Below, in pieces: positions 41,075 to 61,578 of a stretch of 64,000 nt of DNA; within the stretch, counting starts at the first letter, position 1, and each line of letters opens with the position of its first letter. Location: positions 62,001-126,000 of the forward strand of contig DAHVCH010000005.1 of assembly GCA_027314165.1 (NCBI GenBank), given 5' to 3'. A program made the translations under genes and the position numbers. The DNA is from Thermoplasmata archaeon. Its GTDB lineage: Archaea > Thermoplasmatota > Thermoplasmata > Lutacidiplasmatales > UBA184. A model generated the notes under the pieces. The model saw only the letters and a list, made by a program, of their open reading frames with translations. It ran no database searches and was not told the origin of the DNA.

Positions 41075-41156
41075 CCCCGAGGGCTCCGGGCCCGCTTGAG
41101 CCTGGCCTGAGCCGAGCGGCACCTTCAAGGGGGGAAGCCGTTCCTCCCGCGTCGTC

Positions 41157-41885
41157 ATGCCCCGGATCCCGCCCAAGCCCGAAGGACCGACGGCGGCCGA
41201 CATCACTCGCCGCTACATCGACGAGCACCCGTCGATCCGCGACTGCCTCGCGTGGGACGTCGTGAACTTCACGGCGCTCGCACGGAAGATCCTCGAGGAG
41301 AAGGGGCTCAAGAACGAGGAGGCCGTCACCGTCGCCTGCCGCCGCTACCAGCGGCAGATGCAGCAGGAGGTCGCCCAGGACGAGAGGATCCTCCAGGTCA
41401 TCCGCGGCAGCCGGATCGAGGTGCGGACCCGGGTGGCGATCATCGCCGCGCGGAACGACTGGGAGGCGCTCCTCCGGGTCGACGAGGCGGCCGGAGAGCT
41501 CCTGAAGGACCGGCGGCACCTCCTCCAGCTCCTCCAGGGCCCGGGGGCCCTCACCATCCTCTTGGAGGACGACCTTCTCAACAGCGTCGTCCCGTCGCTC
41601 GGCAAGGGGTACGTCATCGACATCTACCGGGGCCTGGCCGCGCTCACCGTCCGCTCTCCCTCCACGATCGTCCGAACGCCCGGGGTCCTCGCGTTCCTCG
41701 CGAACGCCCTCGCGCGGAGGGGGATCAACTGCCTGGAGATCGTGAGCTCCCACACCGACAGCACGTTCGTCCTCGATGAGAAGGACCTGCTCGGCGCCTT
41801 CCAGGTGCTGGGAGACCTCGTCCACCCGCATCCGCAGCCGGCCGACGAGCGAGTGCGGCGCGAGTCGCCCGTGGGACATCCGTAG
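41157..41885 (+). CDS. ACT-domain regulatory protein upstream of arginine genes
   Basis: 242 aa. The N-terminal half is helical with a possible HTH (DCLAWDVVNFTALARKILEEK); the C-terminal half resembles an ACT domain (LAALTVRSPSTIVRTPGVLA ... GINCLEIVSSHTDSTFVL), which in many proteins binds amino acids. It lacks a catalytic domain. Position directly before argC, with a structured leader between them, suggests arginine- or amino-acid-responsive control of the operon. Ligand and DNA binding are inferred, not shown. Confidence 0.7.
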   Translation: MPRIPPKPEGPTAADITRRYIDEHPSIRDCLAWDVVNFTALARKILEEKGLKNEEAVTVACRRYQRQMQQEVAQDERILQVIRGSRIEVRTRVAIIAARNDWEALLRVDEAAGELLKDRRHLLQLLQGPGALTILLEDDLLNSVVPSLGKGYVIDIYRGLAALTVRSPSTIVRTPGVLAFLANALARRGINCLEIVSSHTDSTFVLDEKDLLGAFQVLGDLVHPHPQPADERVRRESPVGHP

Positions 41886-41994
41886 TCCCCACGGAACAGC
41901 CGGGACGTTCGACGTCCCTCGCGCGACCTCCTTCGTCCCCACGGAGCGTCGGCCCTTCCCGACGTTCCTCACGCGACGCGAAGGGGATGTCCCA
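41872..41994 (+). ncRNA. Candidate structured leader RNA of the argC operon
   Basis: A perfect 10-bp closing pair, TGGGACATCC (41872-41881) with GGATGTCCCA (41985-41994), encloses two 50-nt tandem copies (41885-41934 and 41935-41984). Each begins GTCCCCACGGA, contains a 6-bp hairpin (GGGACG/CGTCCC at 41902-41918; CGTCGG/CCGACG at 41947-41964), and ends in a conserved GACGT(C/T)CCTC(G/A)CGCGAC. The left arm overlaps the end of the ACT gene. Strand is taken from argC. It could be a riboswitch, an attenuator or a tandem protein-binding site. Confidence 0.5.
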
Positions 41995-42051
41995 TGGCGG
42001 CTCTGCTCTCTTCCAAGGGCCCCGAAGGGTGCGCCCCCGAACGATCCCGAG

Positions 42052-43086
42052 ATGACGGAACACACGGTCGGGGTTGTGGGGGCGAGCGGCTACCTCGGGG
42101 GCGAACTGCTCCGCCTTCTCCTGACCCATCCTTCTCTGAAGCTCAAGCAGGCGATCTCCCAGGGTCACGCCGGGGAGAACCTCGACCAGGTGTGTCCCTG
42201 GCTGTCCGACGGCCAGGCGATCGTGCTGGAGAAGGACCCCTCCTCCCTGGACGTCGACCTGGCCTTCCTCGCCCTCCCTCAAGGAGAGGCGCTGCGGTGG
42301 ACGCCTGAGCTCCTGGCCCGCGGCACCCGCGTCGTCGACCTGGGTCCGGACTACCGTCTCAAGGATGCCGAGGTCTACGCCCGGACCTACGGCCGCGAGC
42401 ACTCCGACCCGGACGGCCTGGCGCACGCGGTCTACGGGCTGACCGAAGCGAACCGCGAGGCGATCGCCTCTGCGAAGCTCGTGGCGAACCCCGGGTGCTA
42501 CCCCACGGCGACCCTGCTCGCCCTGCTCCCCCTCGCGCGCGCCGGGCTCCTCCCGCCCCACGTCGTGGTGGACGCGAAGAGCGGGACCTCCGGGGCGGGC
42601 TCCTCGCCCACCCCCGCGACGCACCACCCCCAGGCCGGAGCCTCGGTGAACCCCTACGGCGGGGGCCAGCACCGCCACGGGCCGGAGATCCGCCAGGCCC
42701 TCTCGGAGCTCTCGGGGAGCGGCCCCACCGAGCCCGTGACGCAGGTCACCTTCGTTCCGCACCTCGTGCCCGTGGTCCGCGGGCTGCTCTGCACGATCTA
42801 CGCGCCGGGGGTCGACGAGGCGGGGTTCGGGGCCTGGAGCTCGACGCTTCAGGGATCCTACGCCTCCTCCCCGTTCGTCCGCTTCGGCGCGGTCCCCCGG
42901 CTCCCGTGGGCCGTCGGCTCGAACCGCTGCTACCTCGCCACCGAGCTCGCCCCTCCGTCGGGCGTCGTGTACAGCGCCATCGACAACCTCGTCAAGGGGG
43001 GCGCCGGCCAGGCCATCCAGAACGCGAACCTCATGCTCGGGCTGCCCGAGACCACGGGGCTCCCGCTGGGAGGGCTCGGCCCATGA
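42052..43086 (+). CDS. argC: N-acetyl-gamma-glutamyl-phosphate reductase
   Basis: 344 aa. GVVGASGYLGGELLRLLL for NADP binding, the catalytic Cys in VANPGCYPTA, and KSGTSGAGSSP are ArgC signatures. It reduces acetylglutamyl phosphate to the semialdehyde. The lysine-type LysY of archaea is a close relative, but the following argJ, argG and argH support arginine. ATG at 42052 has no Shine-Dalgarno; the frame is open upstream through the structured leader but that part is not protein-like. It overlaps argJ (ATGA). Confidence 0.93.
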   Translation: MTEHTVGVVGASGYLGGELLRLLLTHPSLKLKQAISQGHAGENLDQVCPWLSDGQAIVLEKDPSSLDVDLAFLALPQGEALRWTPELLARGTRVVDLGPDYRLKDAEVYARTYGREHSDPDGLAHAVYGLTEANREAIASAKLVANPGCYPTATLLALLPLARAGLLPPHVVVDAKSGTSGAGSSPTPATHHPQAGASVNPYGGGQHRHGPEIRQALSELSGSGPTEPVTQVTFVPHLVPVVRGLLCTIYAPGVDEAGFGAWSSTLQGSYASSPFVRFGAVPRLPWAVGSNRCYLATELAPPSGVVYSAIDNLVKGGAGQAIQNANLMLGLPETTGLPLGGLGP

Positions 43087-44342
43087 GCCTCGGGGAGTTC
43101 TCGGTCTCCGACCACGGCATCACCTTCGCCAAGGGCTACCGGGCCTCCGGCACCGCCGCCGGGATCAAGCGGTCCCTCCGCCCCGACCTCGCGGTCGTGA
43201 CCTCCCAGCTCCCGGCCTCCGTCGCCGGGCTCTTCACGACCAACCGGGTCCGGGCGGCCCCGGTGGAGATCTGCGAGGAGCTCCTGCGCTCCCGCCCCAC
43301 CGAGGCCCGCGGGCTCGTCGTGGTGAGCGGCGTCGCGAACGCGCTCACCGGCCCCGCCGGGCTCGAGGACTCCCGCCGGGTCATCGAGCTCTCCGAGCAG
43401 GGGCTTGGGGTGCCCAAGGGCAGCGTCTACCACGCCGCGACGGGCGTCATCGGGCCGCGCATCCCGGTGGAGAAGGTCGCTTCCCACCTGCCGAGCGCGA
43501 TCGAGGCTCTGAGCTTCGACCGGGAGGCCGCGACCAAGGCCGCGACGGCGATCCTCACCACCGACACCCGCACGAAGGAGGCCGCGGTCTCCGTCCGGCT
43601 GGCGGACGGCACGCGCGCCCGGATCGGGGGGATGGCCAAGGGGAGCGGCATGATCGCGCCCTCGGTGGGTCCTCCCCACGCCACCACGCTCGCCTTCCTC
43701 ACGACCGACGCCCGCGTGAGCCCCACCGGGCTCCAGGGCCTGCTCAACCGCGAGGCCGACCGCACGTTCAACATGATCAGCGTGGACGGGGACACCTCCA
43801 CGAACGACACCGTGCTCGCCTTCGCGAACGGAGCCGCCGGAGGCGCGCTCTCCGACGACGACCCCGCCCTCGCGCGGGGGATCGGGTTCGTGCTGGAGAA
43901 GCTCGCCCGGGCCGTCGCGCGCGACGGCGAGGGGGCGACCAAGCTCCTCACGGTCCACGTCGAGGGGGCGGCGGACGTCCACGAGGCCCGGGAGGCCGCG
44001 AGGGCCGTCGCGAGCTCGCTGCTCGTCAAGACCGCGCTCTTCGGCGCGGACCCGAACGTCGGCCGGATCGCCTGCGCGCTCGGCTACTCGGGCGCGACCT
44101 TCGACACCGGGGACCTGGACGTCCGCCTGGTCGACGGGCAGAAGCAGTGGCCGCTCATCCTCCGTGGGACCCCGGCCCCCGGGCTCGACAACGGGCAGGG
44201 GCACCGCCTGCACGCCATCCTCCAACGGATGGAGGAGGTCGTCCTGGACGTCCAGCTCCGCCACGGCCCGGCGCAGGCGACGGCGTGGGGATGCGACCTG
44301 TCCTACGGCTACGTCCAGATCAACGCCCAGTACAGGACATGA
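43083..44342 (+). CDS. argJ: Ornithine acetyltransferase ArgJ with insertion at the cleavage site
   Basis: 419 aa. ArgJ transfers the acetyl group between acetylornithine and glutamate, sparing ArgA and ArgE. ATGVIG (119-124, oxyanion hole) and ALFGADPNVGRI are standard. The self-cleavage region reads KGSGMIAPSVGPPHATTLAF: four extra residues separate MIAP from the Ala-Thr cleavage pair (Thr201 is the predicted nucleophile), where most ArgJ have MI-P-N-M-A-T. The VVSGVANALTG segment also lacks a usual Asn. Probably active, but cleavage should be tested. Confidence 0.9.
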   Translation: MSLGEFSVSDHGITFAKGYRASGTAAGIKRSLRPDLAVVTSQLPASVAGLFTTNRVRAAPVEICEELLRSRPTEARGLVVVSGVANALTGPAGLEDSRRVIELSEQGLGVPKGSVYHAATGVIGPRIPVEKVASHLPSAIEALSFDREAATKAATAILTTDTRTKEAAVSVRLADGTRARIGGMAKGSGMIAPSVGPPHATTLAFLTTDARVSPTGLQGLLNREADRTFNMISVDGDTSTNDTVLAFANGAAGGALSDDDPALARGIGFVLEKLARAVARDGEGATKLLTVHVEGAADVHEAREAARAVASSLLVKTALFGADPNVGRIACALGYSGATFDTGDLDVRLVDGQKQWPLILRGTPAPGLDNGQGHRLHAILQRMEEVVLDVQLRHGPAQATAWGCDLSYGYVQINAQYRT

Positions 44343-44359
44343 GGAGGGAGAGGAGCGAC

Positions 44360-45265
44360 ATGACGGGCCGCACCCGGACCGGCCGCCCTCCCCGCGTGGT
44401 CAAGGTGGGCGGCCGGGAGATCCGTCCCGGGCCGGAGCTCGAGGCGTTCGCCTCCTGGGCGAGCGAGCTGCACCGCACTTCCGGGCCCCTGGTCATCGTC
44501 CACGGCGGGGGCGACGAGGTCTCGGCGCTCTCCGAGCGCCTGGGCCTTCCGGCCCTCAAGGTCGCCGGCCAGCGCGTCACCACCCCCGAGGTCCTGCCGC
44601 TCGTCGAGGGCGTCCTCGCGGGCCCCGTGAACCTTCGCCTGGTCTCCGCGCTCAACCGCGCGGGCCTGAGGGCGCTGGGGCTCTCGGGGGTCTCGGGCGA
44701 GATGGTCCAGGCCCGGGACGCGCAGGCCGGTCTGCTCGGCCGCGTCGGAGAACCGACCCGGGTCGACGCCGCGTTCCTGCAGCAGCTGCTCCTCCAGGGG
44801 ATCGTCCCCGTCTTCGCCCCCCTCGCCTCTGACGGCGAGGGAGGGGTGCTGAACGTCAACGCGGACCTCTTCGCGGCGGGGATCGCCCAGGCGCTCGGCG
44901 GGGAGCTCGTCCTGCTCACGGACGTCCCCGGGGTCCTGGACGGCGAGGGCCGCCTCCTGGGCCGCCTCACGCCTTCCGGCGTCCGGGCCCTCGTCGCGGA
45001 CGGCACCGTCCACGGCGGGATGGTTCCGAAGGTCGAGGCCGCCCTCCGGGTCCTCTCGAACGGGGCGAAGCGTGTCTGGATCGGGCCGTTCCGGCCCACC
45101 GCGCTCCACGGCGGGCTCCGCGGCGGGACGTGGTTCGTCCCCGAGGGGATTCCCCTCGACGGACCGTCTCCCCGCGCGCGCCCGACCTCCCCCCGGGGCC
45201 GGCCCCTGGCCGCCGCCTCCACCTACCCTCTCCTCCCGCTCCGTCTGGGGGCGGGGGCAGGATAG
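44360..45265 (+). CDS. argB: Acetylglutamate kinase
   Basis: 301 aa. VVKVGGREI, the glycine-rich LVIVHGGGDEVS, LNVNADLFAAGIA and LLTDVPGVL match the amino-acid kinase fold of ArgB (also LysZ). It phosphorylates N-acetylglutamate. I chose ATG at 44360, which follows GGAGGGAGAGGAG; the in-frame ATG at 44339 overlaps the argJ stop and would add seven residues. The last 45 residues are Pro/Arg-rich and unlike the family. Confidence 0.9.
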   Translation: MTGRTRTGRPPRVVKVGGREIRPGPELEAFASWASELHRTSGPLVIVHGGGDEVSALSERLGLPALKVAGQRVTTPEVLPLVEGVLAGPVNLRLVSALNRAGLRALGLSGVSGEMVQARDAQAGLLGRVGEPTRVDAAFLQQLLLQGIVPVFAPLASDGEGGVLNVNADLFAAGIAQALGGELVLLTDVPGVLDGEGRLLGRLTPSGVRALVADGTVHGGMVPKVEAALRVLSNGAKRVWIGPFRPTALHGGLRGGTWFVPEGIPLDGPSPRARPTSPRGRPLAAASTYPLLPLRLGAGAG

Positions 45266-45284
45266 CAACGAGGTACGAACGAAG

Positions 45285-46556
45285 ATGGCCGGGAAGCTCA
45301 AACACGTGGTGCTCGCCTACTCGGGGGGACTCGACACGTCCGTCGCCATCCCCTGGATCAAGGAACACTACGGCGCAGAAGTGACGACGCTCACGATCGA
45401 CGTGGGGCAGGAGGGAGAACTCTCCGACGCGGTCGAGCGCGCTCCGCTCAACGGGGCCCGCGAGGCGCTGCTGGTCGACGCGAAGGAGGCCTTCGCCGAG
45501 GAGTTCCTCTTCCCGGCGCTCGCCGCCAACTGTCTCTACCAGGGCATCTACCCGCTGTCGACCTCCCTCGCGCGCCCGCTGATCGTCCGCCACCTGGTCT
45601 CCGCCGCCTTACGGCTGGGGGCGGACGCCGTGGCGCACGGGTGCACGGGGAAGGGGAACGACCAGGTCCGCTTCGATGTGGGCGTCCAGACGCTCGCCCC
45701 CCACCTGGCGATCATCGCCCCGGTCCGGGAGTGGAACATGAACCGGACGGACGAGATCGAGTATGCCCGGGCCCACGGGCTCAAGATCCACGTGAAGCCC
45801 GAGTCCCCCTACTCGGTCGACGAGAACCTCTGGGGCCGGTCGATCGAAGGGGGCCGCCTGGAGGACCCCGCCGCCGCCCCGCCGGAAGAGGTCTTCCAGT
45901 GGACCGGCCACCCCTCGGACTGGCCGAAGGCCCCCGAGGAAGTGCGTGTCGGGTTCTCCCGGGGCCTCCCCGTGAGCCTGGACGGAGCGGCGATGGACCC
46001 CGTCCCGCTGATCCGTGCCCTCAACGAGAAGGTCGGCGCGCACGGCGTCGGCCGGATCGACCACGTGGAGGACCGGGTGGTGGGGATCAAGTCGCGCGAG
46101 ACCTACGAGTGTCCCGCCGCGGTCGCCCTGGTCCAGGCCCACCAGGCGCTGGAGGCGCTCGTGCTGCCGCGCGACCTCCTCTCCTTCAAGGCCAGCGTGG
46201 ACCGCCGGTTCGCCGACACGGTCTACGAGGGTCTCTGGTACAGCCCGCTCCGGGAGGCCCTCTCGGCCTTCTCCCTGAGCACCCAGGAGACCGTGACCGG
46301 CGAGGTCACGCTGCGGCTCTTCCAGGGGTCGGCCCGGGTCGTCTCCCGGCGCTCGCCCTTCTCCCTGCTGAGCCGGGAGCTCGCGACGTACGACCGGGGG
46401 TCCACCTTCCGGCAGGATGCGGCCGAGGGCTTCATCCACCTCTTCGGTCTGTCCAACCGGTTGGCCTATGCCCGCAGGAGAGAAGCGCTCACCGAAACGG
46501 AGGACGGGGGGAACCTCCCTGCTTCGGGAAAGGTTTCGCCGCCCACCCCACCCTGA
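45285..46556 (+). CDS. argG: Argininosuccinate synthase
   Basis: 423 aa. P-loop-like AYSGGLDTS (10-18), GCTGKGNDQVRF and EWNMNRTDEIEYA identify ArgG, which joins citrulline and aspartate with ATP. It starts 19 nt after argB. The 3' end overlaps the argH frame by 89 nt if argH uses its ATG. No ornithine carbamoyltransferase or acetylornithine aminotransferase is in the window, so the pathway is completed elsewhere. Confidence 0.95.
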   Translation: MAGKLKHVVLAYSGGLDTSVAIPWIKEHYGAEVTTLTIDVGQEGELSDAVERAPLNGAREALLVDAKEAFAEEFLFPALAANCLYQGIYPLSTSLARPLIVRHLVSAALRLGADAVAHGCTGKGNDQVRFDVGVQTLAPHLAIIAPVREWNMNRTDEIEYARAHGLKIHVKPESPYSVDENLWGRSIEGGRLEDPAAAPPEEVFQWTGHPSDWPKAPEEVRVGFSRGLPVSLDGAAMDPVPLIRALNEKVGAHGVGRIDHVEDRVVGIKSRETYECPAAVALVQAHQALEALVLPRDLLSFKASVDRRFADTVYEGLWYSPLREALSAFSLSTQETVTGEVTLRLFQGSARVVSRRSPFSLLSRELATYDRGSTFRQDAAEGFIHLFGLSNRLAYARRREALTETEDGGNLPASGKVSPPTPP

Positions 46557-47985
46557 GGCGGCGGAGTTCGGCTCCTCCGTCGAGGAGGACCGGGTCCTCC
46601 TGCCGTACGATCTGCTGGGAAGCCTCGCCCACGCCCGCATGCTGACCCGGCAGGGGTTGCTTCCGCTCCAGCAGGGTCGGACGCTGGTCCGCGAGCTCGT
46701 ACGCCTTCGCCGAGAGGCCGCGGCCGACCGCTTCCCGCTCGACCCGTCCCTCGAGGACGTCCACATGAACGTGGAGGCGACGCTCACCTCCCGGCTGGGG
46801 GACGTGGGCGCGCGCCTCCCGACGGGGCGGAGCCGGAACGACCAGGTGGCCACCGACCTCGCGCTCTACCTGCGCCACTCGCTCCTGCGTCTGGAGCAGC
46901 TCGTCGTGGCCTCCTCGGGGGCGCTGCTCGCCCAGGCGGCGGGGCCCCAGGGAAGGTACGTCGTCCCTGCGATGACCCACCTGCAGGACGCCCAGCGCGT
47001 CTACCTCGCGCAGGTCCTCCAGGTGCACGCCCGACGGCTCGTCCGCGACGCCAGCCGCCTGCGTCGGGTCCGGGAGTCGATGATCTACTGCCCGCTGGGG
47101 GCGGGGGCGATCGCCGGGAGCTCCCTCCCCCTGGACCGGAACCTCACCGCCCGCCTCCTGGGCTTCCGCGAGCCCCACCCGAACTCGATGGACGCGGTCT
47201 CCGACCGCGACTCGGCGTCGGAGACGCTGGGCGCCCTCGCCCTGCTCGGGGTCCACATCTCCTCCCTGGCGGAGGAGTGGGTCCTCTGGTCCACGCCGCA
47301 GTTCGGCCGGCTCCGGCTCGATGACGCGTTCGTCACGACCTCGAGCCTGATGCCCCACAAGCGGAACCCGGACATGGCGGAGCTTCTCCGGGGAGAGTCG
47401 GGGCCGCTCATCGGCCTGGCCACGGGTCACCTGGTCACCCTGAAGGGGCTCCCCCTCGCCTACAACCGGGACCTCCAGACGCTGAAGCCCCTCCTGTTCG
47501 AGGGGGTCCGGCGCGCCGAGCGGGCGCTCCGGGTCCTCGCGCCGATGATCCGGACCGCGCGCTTCCACACCTCGCCCGCCACCCACGGAGGAGGAGCGTC
47601 GCCCACGGCGAGCGTCGAGCTTGCGGACGAGCTTGTCCGGTGCGGGGTGCCGTTCCGGGAGGCCCACCGCCGGGTGGCGAAGTTCCTGGTCGAGCTCGAG
47701 CGCGCTCACCGGTCGTGGGGGGACCTCACGGAAGACGCGTGGGGCCAGGCGTTCCCCGAGCTCCTACGCCGGGGATGGTCCCCGCCCGCCCCGCATCAGG
47801 AGCCCGAACGCCGGACGACCTCGGGGGGAAGCGCGTGGGTGGAGGTCTCCAGGGACCGCATGCTTCTCGAGCGGGCGCTCCAGCGCCACCTCTCGGTCCT
47901 GGCGGCCGAGTCCGCCCGCCTCACCGAGCTCGAGCGCAGGCTCGAGACCTCTCCCGTTCAGGGACGGGTCTCGGCCCGGAAGTAG
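46468..47985 (+). CDS. argH: Argininosuccinate lyase
   Basis: About 505 aa. GARLPTGRSRNDQVATDLAL, THLQDAQRV and the fumarase-superfamily signature TSSLMPHKRNPDMAE identify ArgH, which releases arginine and fumarate. The family usually starts near the residues LLRERF of this reading. The only ATG in frame (46468) lies within argG, with no ribosome site; a non-ATG start near 46520, behind GGAGGACGGGGGGA, is also possible. The start is therefore uncertain. Confidence 0.92.
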   Translation: MPAGEKRSPKRRTGGTSLLRERFRRPPHPEAAEFGSSVEEDRVLLPYDLLGSLAHARMLTRQGLLPLQQGRTLVRELVRLRREAAADRFPLDPSLEDVHMNVEATLTSRLGDVGARLPTGRSRNDQVATDLALYLRHSLLRLEQLVVASSGALLAQAAGPQGRYVVPAMTHLQDAQRVYLAQVLQVHARRLVRDASRLRRVRESMIYCPLGAGAIAGSSLPLDRNLTARLLGFREPHPNSMDAVSDRDSASETLGALALLGVHISSLAEEWVLWSTPQFGRLRLDDAFVTTSSLMPHKRNPDMAELLRGESGPLIGLATGHLVTLKGLPLAYNRDLQTLKPLLFEGVRRAERALRVLAPMIRTARFHTSPATHGGGASPTASVELADELVRCGVPFREAHRRVAKFLVELERAHRSWGDLTEDAWGQAFPELLRRGWSPPAPHQEPERRTTSGGSAWVEVSRDRMLLERALQRHLSVLAAESARLTELERRLETSPVQGRVSARK

Positions 47986-60799: not shown

Positions 60800-61578
60800 T
60801 CCCGGGCGCCGCTACAACATGAACCCAGCGGTCAAGGGTGACAGGTCACCCGGTTGAAGCCGGCGGTAGTCGGGACTCCTGTCGAGGGCTGTCGCGCCAC
60901 GCGCCCATGGTTGTACATCCGGGAACAGGGAACACCTTGACCCACAGCTCGAGGATGAATTGGACCTCGGGCACCTACCTGCCTGGCCCCTCCCACCGGA
61001 CGCAGGTGAGAAGATCATCCTCTCGAAGAAAGGATTCGAAGAGCTCCTCCGACCGAGGGAGGAGCTGGAGAAGAAGGACCGGGAGTCGGCGAGGAAGGTG
61101 GTGAATCGGGGAACTATCGTGGACGTGGAACAGCTCTGGGAGGCGCTGGAGGGGGGTTGGAGTACCGCACCGGGGCCGGGACGTCGGTGAGGGGTGAGAA
61201 CTTCGCGGACGAGGTCCTGTCGCTGCGGGCTCGGCTGTTCGAGTTCGTGCTGAACCCGACGGTGGATGGGACATGCCCTCGGGCGGAGGGCTCGCTCCGC
61301 CCGATGGTGGTGGCGAGGAAGATCAGTGGGGGTAGCCGGAGCTGGCGGGGAGGGAAAATGTTCGAGGCCCTCGCGAGTGTGGTCCAGACGTTACCGTCGA
61401 GGCGGCAGGACCTGGTGTAGCACGGTCCGGGCCACGTAGGGTTGGTCCCCTTCGGGTCGTCCCGGGGACGAGGGAACTCCCCTCACGACACACGAGTTCG
61501 GACCGCTGACCAGTTGCGTCACGCCAAAGGCTCCAAGAGGTGGACCGGTCCTCCCTTCTTCCGCGGAGCGAGGGCGGC
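60800..61578. other. Spacer with decayed mobile element between glycan region and ATPase
   Basis: Apart from the transposase remnant, I see only short frames of non-coding character (for example 60960-61190). Base composition is less GC-rich than the flanks, as expected for degenerating inserted DNA. No tRNA, promoter or clear repeat was found. Confidence 0.45.
61157..61420 (+). pseudogene. IS66/ISH10-type transposase C-terminal remnant
   Basis: The 87-residue frame contains SLRARLFEFVLNPTVDGT, AEGSLRPMVVARKISGGSR and LASVVQTLPSRR, matching the C-terminal end of IS66-type transposases, where the family has P-N-N-x-A-E-R-x-LRP; here the Asn pair and Arg are lost. The rest of the transposase and terminal repeats are not visible in 60800-61578. 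So it is a decayed fragment, not a working element. Confidence 0.6.

Follow-up and report, generated by a model that had tools for sequence, protein, structure and literature searches.

The window, meaning the whole stretch of 64,000 nucleotides that was analysed, holds a repeat region between a gene for a protein with DUF7523 and ACT_7 domains (41157-41885) and argC. The matches of this upstream gene to PF24367 and then PF13840 are both above the curated Pfam cut-offs, and its stop codon occupies 41883-41885. The argC-J-B-G-H order that follows the repeats is also found in loci L141, L142 and L144-L146. The features are as follows.

41120..41130, forward strand: TATA-like box (CACCTTCAAGG) for the regulator gene; relatives keep it about 34-38 nt ahead of the start codon.
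41157..41885, forward strand: putative regulator gene, 242 aa, with an N-terminal DUF7523 domain (Pfam PF24367, E 7e-9) and a C-terminal ACT_7 domain (PF13840, E 2e-7).
41864..41877, unstranded: candidate operator site A, GTCGCCCGTGGGAC, with perfect half-sites, within the last codons (3' end) of the regulator gene.
41885..41895, unstranded: block A' (GTCCCCACGGA), a possible degenerate site repeated at a 50-bp step; 8 of the 12 columns of 41886-41897 are invariant in the genus.
41914..41927, unstranded: candidate operator site B, GTCCCTCGCGCGAC; 11 of 14 columns are invariant in the genus.
41935..41945, unstranded: block B' (GTCCCCACGGA), a possible degenerate site and the second copy of the block; 8 of 11 columns are invariant.
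41964..41977, unstranded: candidate operator site C, GTTCCTCACGCGAC, 50 bp from B in genomes G000-G003.
41975..41988, unstranded: candidate operator site D, GACGCGAAGGGGAT, overlapping C and lying 11 bp further on; score 6.4, rank 81; 13 of 15 columns are invariant.
42010..42018, forward strand: weak candidate TATA-like box of argC (CTTCCAAGG), resembling the CTCAAGG and CTTCAAGG boxes of relatives and the box of the regulator gene.
42052..43086, forward strand: argC, which opens the presumed target cluster and has semialdehyde dehydrogenase domains (Pfam).
43083..47985, forward strand: argJ, argB, argG and argH, following argC (Pfam ArgJ, argininosuccinate synthase and argininosuccinate lyase).

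The core conserved element is a 14-bp palindrome, GTCSC-N4-GSGAC, which occurs at 41864, 41914 and 41964 in exact 50-bp steps, with a fourth, overlapping copy at 41975. An earlier note on this DNA had described two 50-nt tandem copies. The 50-nt step is real (41864/41914, 41910/41960), but the palindromic block has three in-register copies, and the one that was missed, at 41864-41877, lies inside the ACT gene. The remaining elements of that description are present in the sequence: the conserved block GTCCCCACGGA occurs twice, an exact 10-bp inverted repeat joins 41872-41881 to 41985-41994, and two hairpins have equal stems of 6 bp (41902-41907/41913-41918 and 41947-41952/41959-41964). Neither block A' nor block B' fits the 14-bp site model. 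Site A is retained in every genus that has the ACT-argC gene order, and site D is of the same sequence type as the proximal site of locus L086, GACGCGAAGGGGACA. Elsewhere in the window, at 61445-61469, two overlapping high-scoring sites (GTCCCCTTCGGGTC and GTCGTCCCGGGGAC, at 61445 and 61456) show the 11-bp step of C and D; no clear gene lies directly downstream of this pair.

The hairpins had led the earlier note to propose an arginine-responsive RNA or operator. As an RNA, the element would be a cis-acting structured leader of argC, a riboswitch or attenuator in which two duplicated hairpins and an outer closing stem sense arginine. Its location ahead of argC and its stems of equal length are in keeping with such a leader, and the window strand folds better than 199 of 200 shuffled sequences (z -3.4), although a good fold is expected anyway from palindromic repeats, on any strand. 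The different stem sequences had been taken for covariation. When the named helices are compared across four species of the genus, 82% of cells pair, as against 79.5% in shuffles; only two pairs are changed on both sides (shuffle mean 0.8, a count reached by 82 of 500 shuffles), and the covariation score is 0.121 compared with 0.087 +/- 0.022. In the two more distant species (G002 and G003) 11 of the 24 pair cells of the two hairpins are lost without compensation, and 3 of the 10 pairs of the outer inverted repeat are gone in G003. Pairing is thus unconserved in relatives, even within the genus, which is the outcome that the earlier note itself had named as counting against its proposal. What is conserved is the palindrome: within the genus, 43 of 55 columns in the half-sites are invariant, against 17 of 54 in the rest of the element and only 4 of 17 in the hairpin arms outside the palindromes. 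The comparison (P about 1e-6) is descriptive because the half-site columns were picked with the motif of the other genera known. No Rfam family matches the locus above threshold; the earlier note had not recognised a known riboswitch. The RNA leader was rejected on the covariation test, the alignment fold and the Rfam search, and we regard it as very improbable.

The palindromic sites recur in other genera of the family. An argC of the window type, with 53-100% identity, is present in 33 genomes of the family, all of which also encode a DUF7523-ACT protein. Upstream of argC, 31 non-redundant regions from the family contain 49 sites with a score of 9 or more out of 10, whereas dinucleotide shuffles give 4.7 (maximum 13). 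The spacings between site pairs in these regions pile up at 11, 20, 30-31, 49-51 and 100 bp, with shuffle means of 0.1-0.6 for each of the first four (100 bp was left out of the shuffle computation); since sequences are related within a genus, few independent events stand behind these spacing statistics. The genus of the window (g1) and genera g2, g3 and g7 have two or three sites about 50 bp apart, compared with a pair at 30-31 bp in g4 and g5. The proximal site occupies the same place in g3 and in g4/g5, whereas the position of the distal one differs by about two turns. A spacing that changes by whole helical turns between genera again speaks against an RNA leader.

A site model built from 39 g4/g5 sites only ranks A, C and B 2nd, 7th and 8th among 63,987 window positions, and at the element four sites reach a score of at least 6 where 0.2 are expected. 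The strict double site has a single occurrence in the whole genome, and the reversed control pattern has none. The motif stays ahead of argC where the regulator gene is non-adjacent (L078, L080 and L084) and is therefore no by-product of coding constraint. In the lineage with LysX-type arginine genes, which served as a negative control, argC is preceded by coding sequence without such paired sites. The argF promoters carry a proximal site in four of five g5 genomes, but such sites are absent from the other genera, so argF was rejected as a general target. A regulon drawn from the single-site pattern was rejected as well, since its 85 places in the genome are too common to interpret.

The position of the sites relative to the promoter is best seen outside the genus of the window. 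In 24 of 28 such loci (all those of g4 and g5 and four of g3), a TATA-like box, e.g. CTCAAGG or TTGATAG, lies at a fixed 7 nt after the proximal site. No site in g3, g4 or g5 overlaps the box or the start, and the proximal site ends about 6 nt before the box. As the box is downstream of the element, the element would lie outside the argC transcript in those g3, g4 and g5 loci, a further point against an RNA leader. In the genus of the window the argC box is weak, and its distance from site D is about 21 nt, compared with about 6 nt between proximal site and box in the sister genera. Given the box CTTCCAAGG, transcription of argC would start near 42040, downstream of the element that the earlier note had delimited. 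A start beyond 41994 was the other result it had set against itself, and the likely core promoter of argC, predicted from the sequence at 42010-42018, does lie beyond that point. Of its two proposals, the operator is well supported, but the RNA is opposed by unconserved pairing, the lack of an Rfam match and the upstream position of the element in the sister genera. A G+C-tolerant TATA-like element, CAC-N2-3-YTYAAG, is present at 41120-41130 and at the same place in relatives, and seems to represent the type of core promoter used in the lineage.

The upstream gene belongs to a widespread family. DUF7523 and ACT_7 are both matched in all 29 homologues searched against Pfam. In these 29 proteins no AsnC or Lrp domains (HTH_AsnC, AsnC/RAM) were found, and neither they nor the regulator protein match the DNA-binding or C-terminal domains of ArgR. 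Of 300 genomes sampled across the class Thermoplasmata, 195 contain a member of the DUF7523-ACT family. In 17 further loci (15 from other families of the class and two of the LysX-type lineage of the same family), the regulator gene lies no more than a few kb from argCJB and/or argGH in 15 cases. The class-wide loci provide 14 intergenic regions at arg genes: ten separate argC from argG, and four separate the regulator gene from argG. Nine of them contain GTC-N8-GACA, and none has the motif with a spacer of N6, N7, N9 or N10. On this gene linkage, the GTC-N8-GACA motif of the arg intergenic regions and the argF sites of g5, the strongest candidate for the regulator is the ACT protein and that for its ligand is arginine, the latter as judged from the neighbouring genes only. 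The earlier suggestion of a regulatory element tied to arginine and to an ACT protein agrees with the class-wide linkage.

Several variations on this arrangement were observed. In g4 (L137, L138) the arg cluster lies between two DUF7523-ACT paralogues, the first ahead of argC and the second beyond argH, whereas the two paralogues of g5 (L139) stand in tandem away from argC. Two DUF7523-ACT units adjoin in one open frame of ~480-840 aa in G079:C67, G105:C24, G112:C153 and G016:C68, which suggests fused, covalently dimeric regulators. In the LysX-type arginine lineage (L143, L191, L192) the regulator gene is divergent from argG, and GTCATGTTT(C/G)(A/G)GACA, an A+T-richer form of the palindrome, occurs in two of these three gaps. 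Locus L099 (JAKBKR010000011.1), titled 'bacterium isolate DX1.bin10', carries the archaeal regulator gene, and the bin is probably mislabelled.

The element has the features of a multi-site operator: conserved palindromes, helically phased spacing and a position next to a promoter. We propose, with a probability of about 0.7, that it is a DNA operator array and promoter region of the argCJBGH cluster, putatively bound by the DUF7523-ACT protein encoded upstream. DNA binding by this protein, its ligand and the sign of control are presumed. The same operators could instead serve a different, unlinked transcription factor, with the DUF7523-ACT protein in another role, for example that of allosteric subunit in an arginine enzyme. 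The protein is a putative DNA binder, and its N-terminal domain lacks a fold match: the model of that domain (pLDDT 73) found no PDB match at E <= 0.001, and the full-length model reached a pLDDT of 45.6 (11 sequences). Because these models are too weak to establish a DNA-binding fold, a helix-turn-helix is not claimed. Nevertheless, the N-terminal domain is conserved, helical in the model and additional to the ACT domain. The linkage of the gene to arg clusters across the class, with the same type of motif there, and its presence in every genome with a window-type argC also make an unlinked factor unlikely.

In the proposed operator array, three 14-bp palindromes 50 bp (about five helical turns) apart and the overlapping fourth would present themselves on one face of the helix, most likely to dimers or multimers of the DUF7523-ACT protein. 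The N-terminal domain would read the DNA and the ACT domain would sense an amino acid, most likely arginine. In the sister genera the nearest site would lie beside the position of the BRE, the geometry of the archaeal activators LysM and Ptr2. The arg genes may thus be activated when arginine is scarce, with arginine abolishing activation. Alternatively, the array may be that of a repressor, in which the arginine-bound regulator covers the promoter and blocks TBP/TFB. Arginine genes are most commonly controlled by end-product repression, and in the genus of the window the array reaches close to the promoter; repression is thus a real, if the less probable, possibility. The sites of g3, g4 and g5, however, are clear of the TATA-like box and the start, as are those of archaeal activators (PMC2995911). 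Activation is slightly preferred over simple repression in our analysis, because the proximal site stands just before the TATA-like box as in the LysM and Ptr2 activators.

The proposed operator system can be compared with several known ones. Bacterial ArgR regulates arginine biosynthesis through paired palindromic boxes, and the ARG boxes are A+T-rich 18-bp sites. The putative regulator described here would resemble it in acting on paired palindromes ahead of arginine genes, but it has no ArgR domain and its sites are G+C-rich and 14 bp long. CASTOR1 binds arginine, and the ACT domains of CASTOR1 and aspartokinase belong to the same Pfam family (ACT_7) as the C-terminal domain of the regulator, which has neither a kinase nor the CASTOR architecture and carries DUF7523 at its N-terminus. 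Ptr2 of Methanocaldococcus jannaschii and Ss-LrpB of Sulfolobus likewise use several helically phased dimer sites upstream of a promoter. They are of another protein family, and Lrp operators are spaced by 2-3 turns as opposed to about 5 here (3 in other genera). Another close parallel is LysM of Sulfolobus solfataricus, which gives the lysWXJK cluster the amino-acid-responsive control of a biosynthetic cluster that is proposed here. LysM has a dimer site just upstream of the BRE, and a loss of activation in the presence of its effector has been proposed (PMC2995911). In g3, g4 and g5 the array is laid out in this way. In contrast to the present protein, with DUF7523 and ACT_7 and no Lrp match, LysM is an Lrp protein (HTH and RAM) and controls lysine rather than arginine genes; the sites here are G+C-rich 14-bp palindromes.

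The logic of a multi-site operator for an amino-acid regulator is ordinary. The literature searched yielded no paper on DUF7523, no archaeal arginine regulator of the DUF7523-ACT type and no described regulator of arginine biosynthesis for these archaea. What is new is the parts: the protein family, for which no literature was found there, the exactly defined operator and the association with arginine genes across the class. It appears fairly probable that DUF7523-ACT proteins form an undescribed family of archaeal transcription factors that sense arginine and control its biosynthesis across the class through GTC-N8-GAC palindromes, and that the spacing of the array has changed between three and five turns among genera. 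The analysis names a protein family, defines an exact operator and predicts a target cluster, each of which binding assays can test directly. The three-turn and five-turn spacings provide a natural experiment on the contacts that archaeal regulators make with each other and with TBP/TFB.
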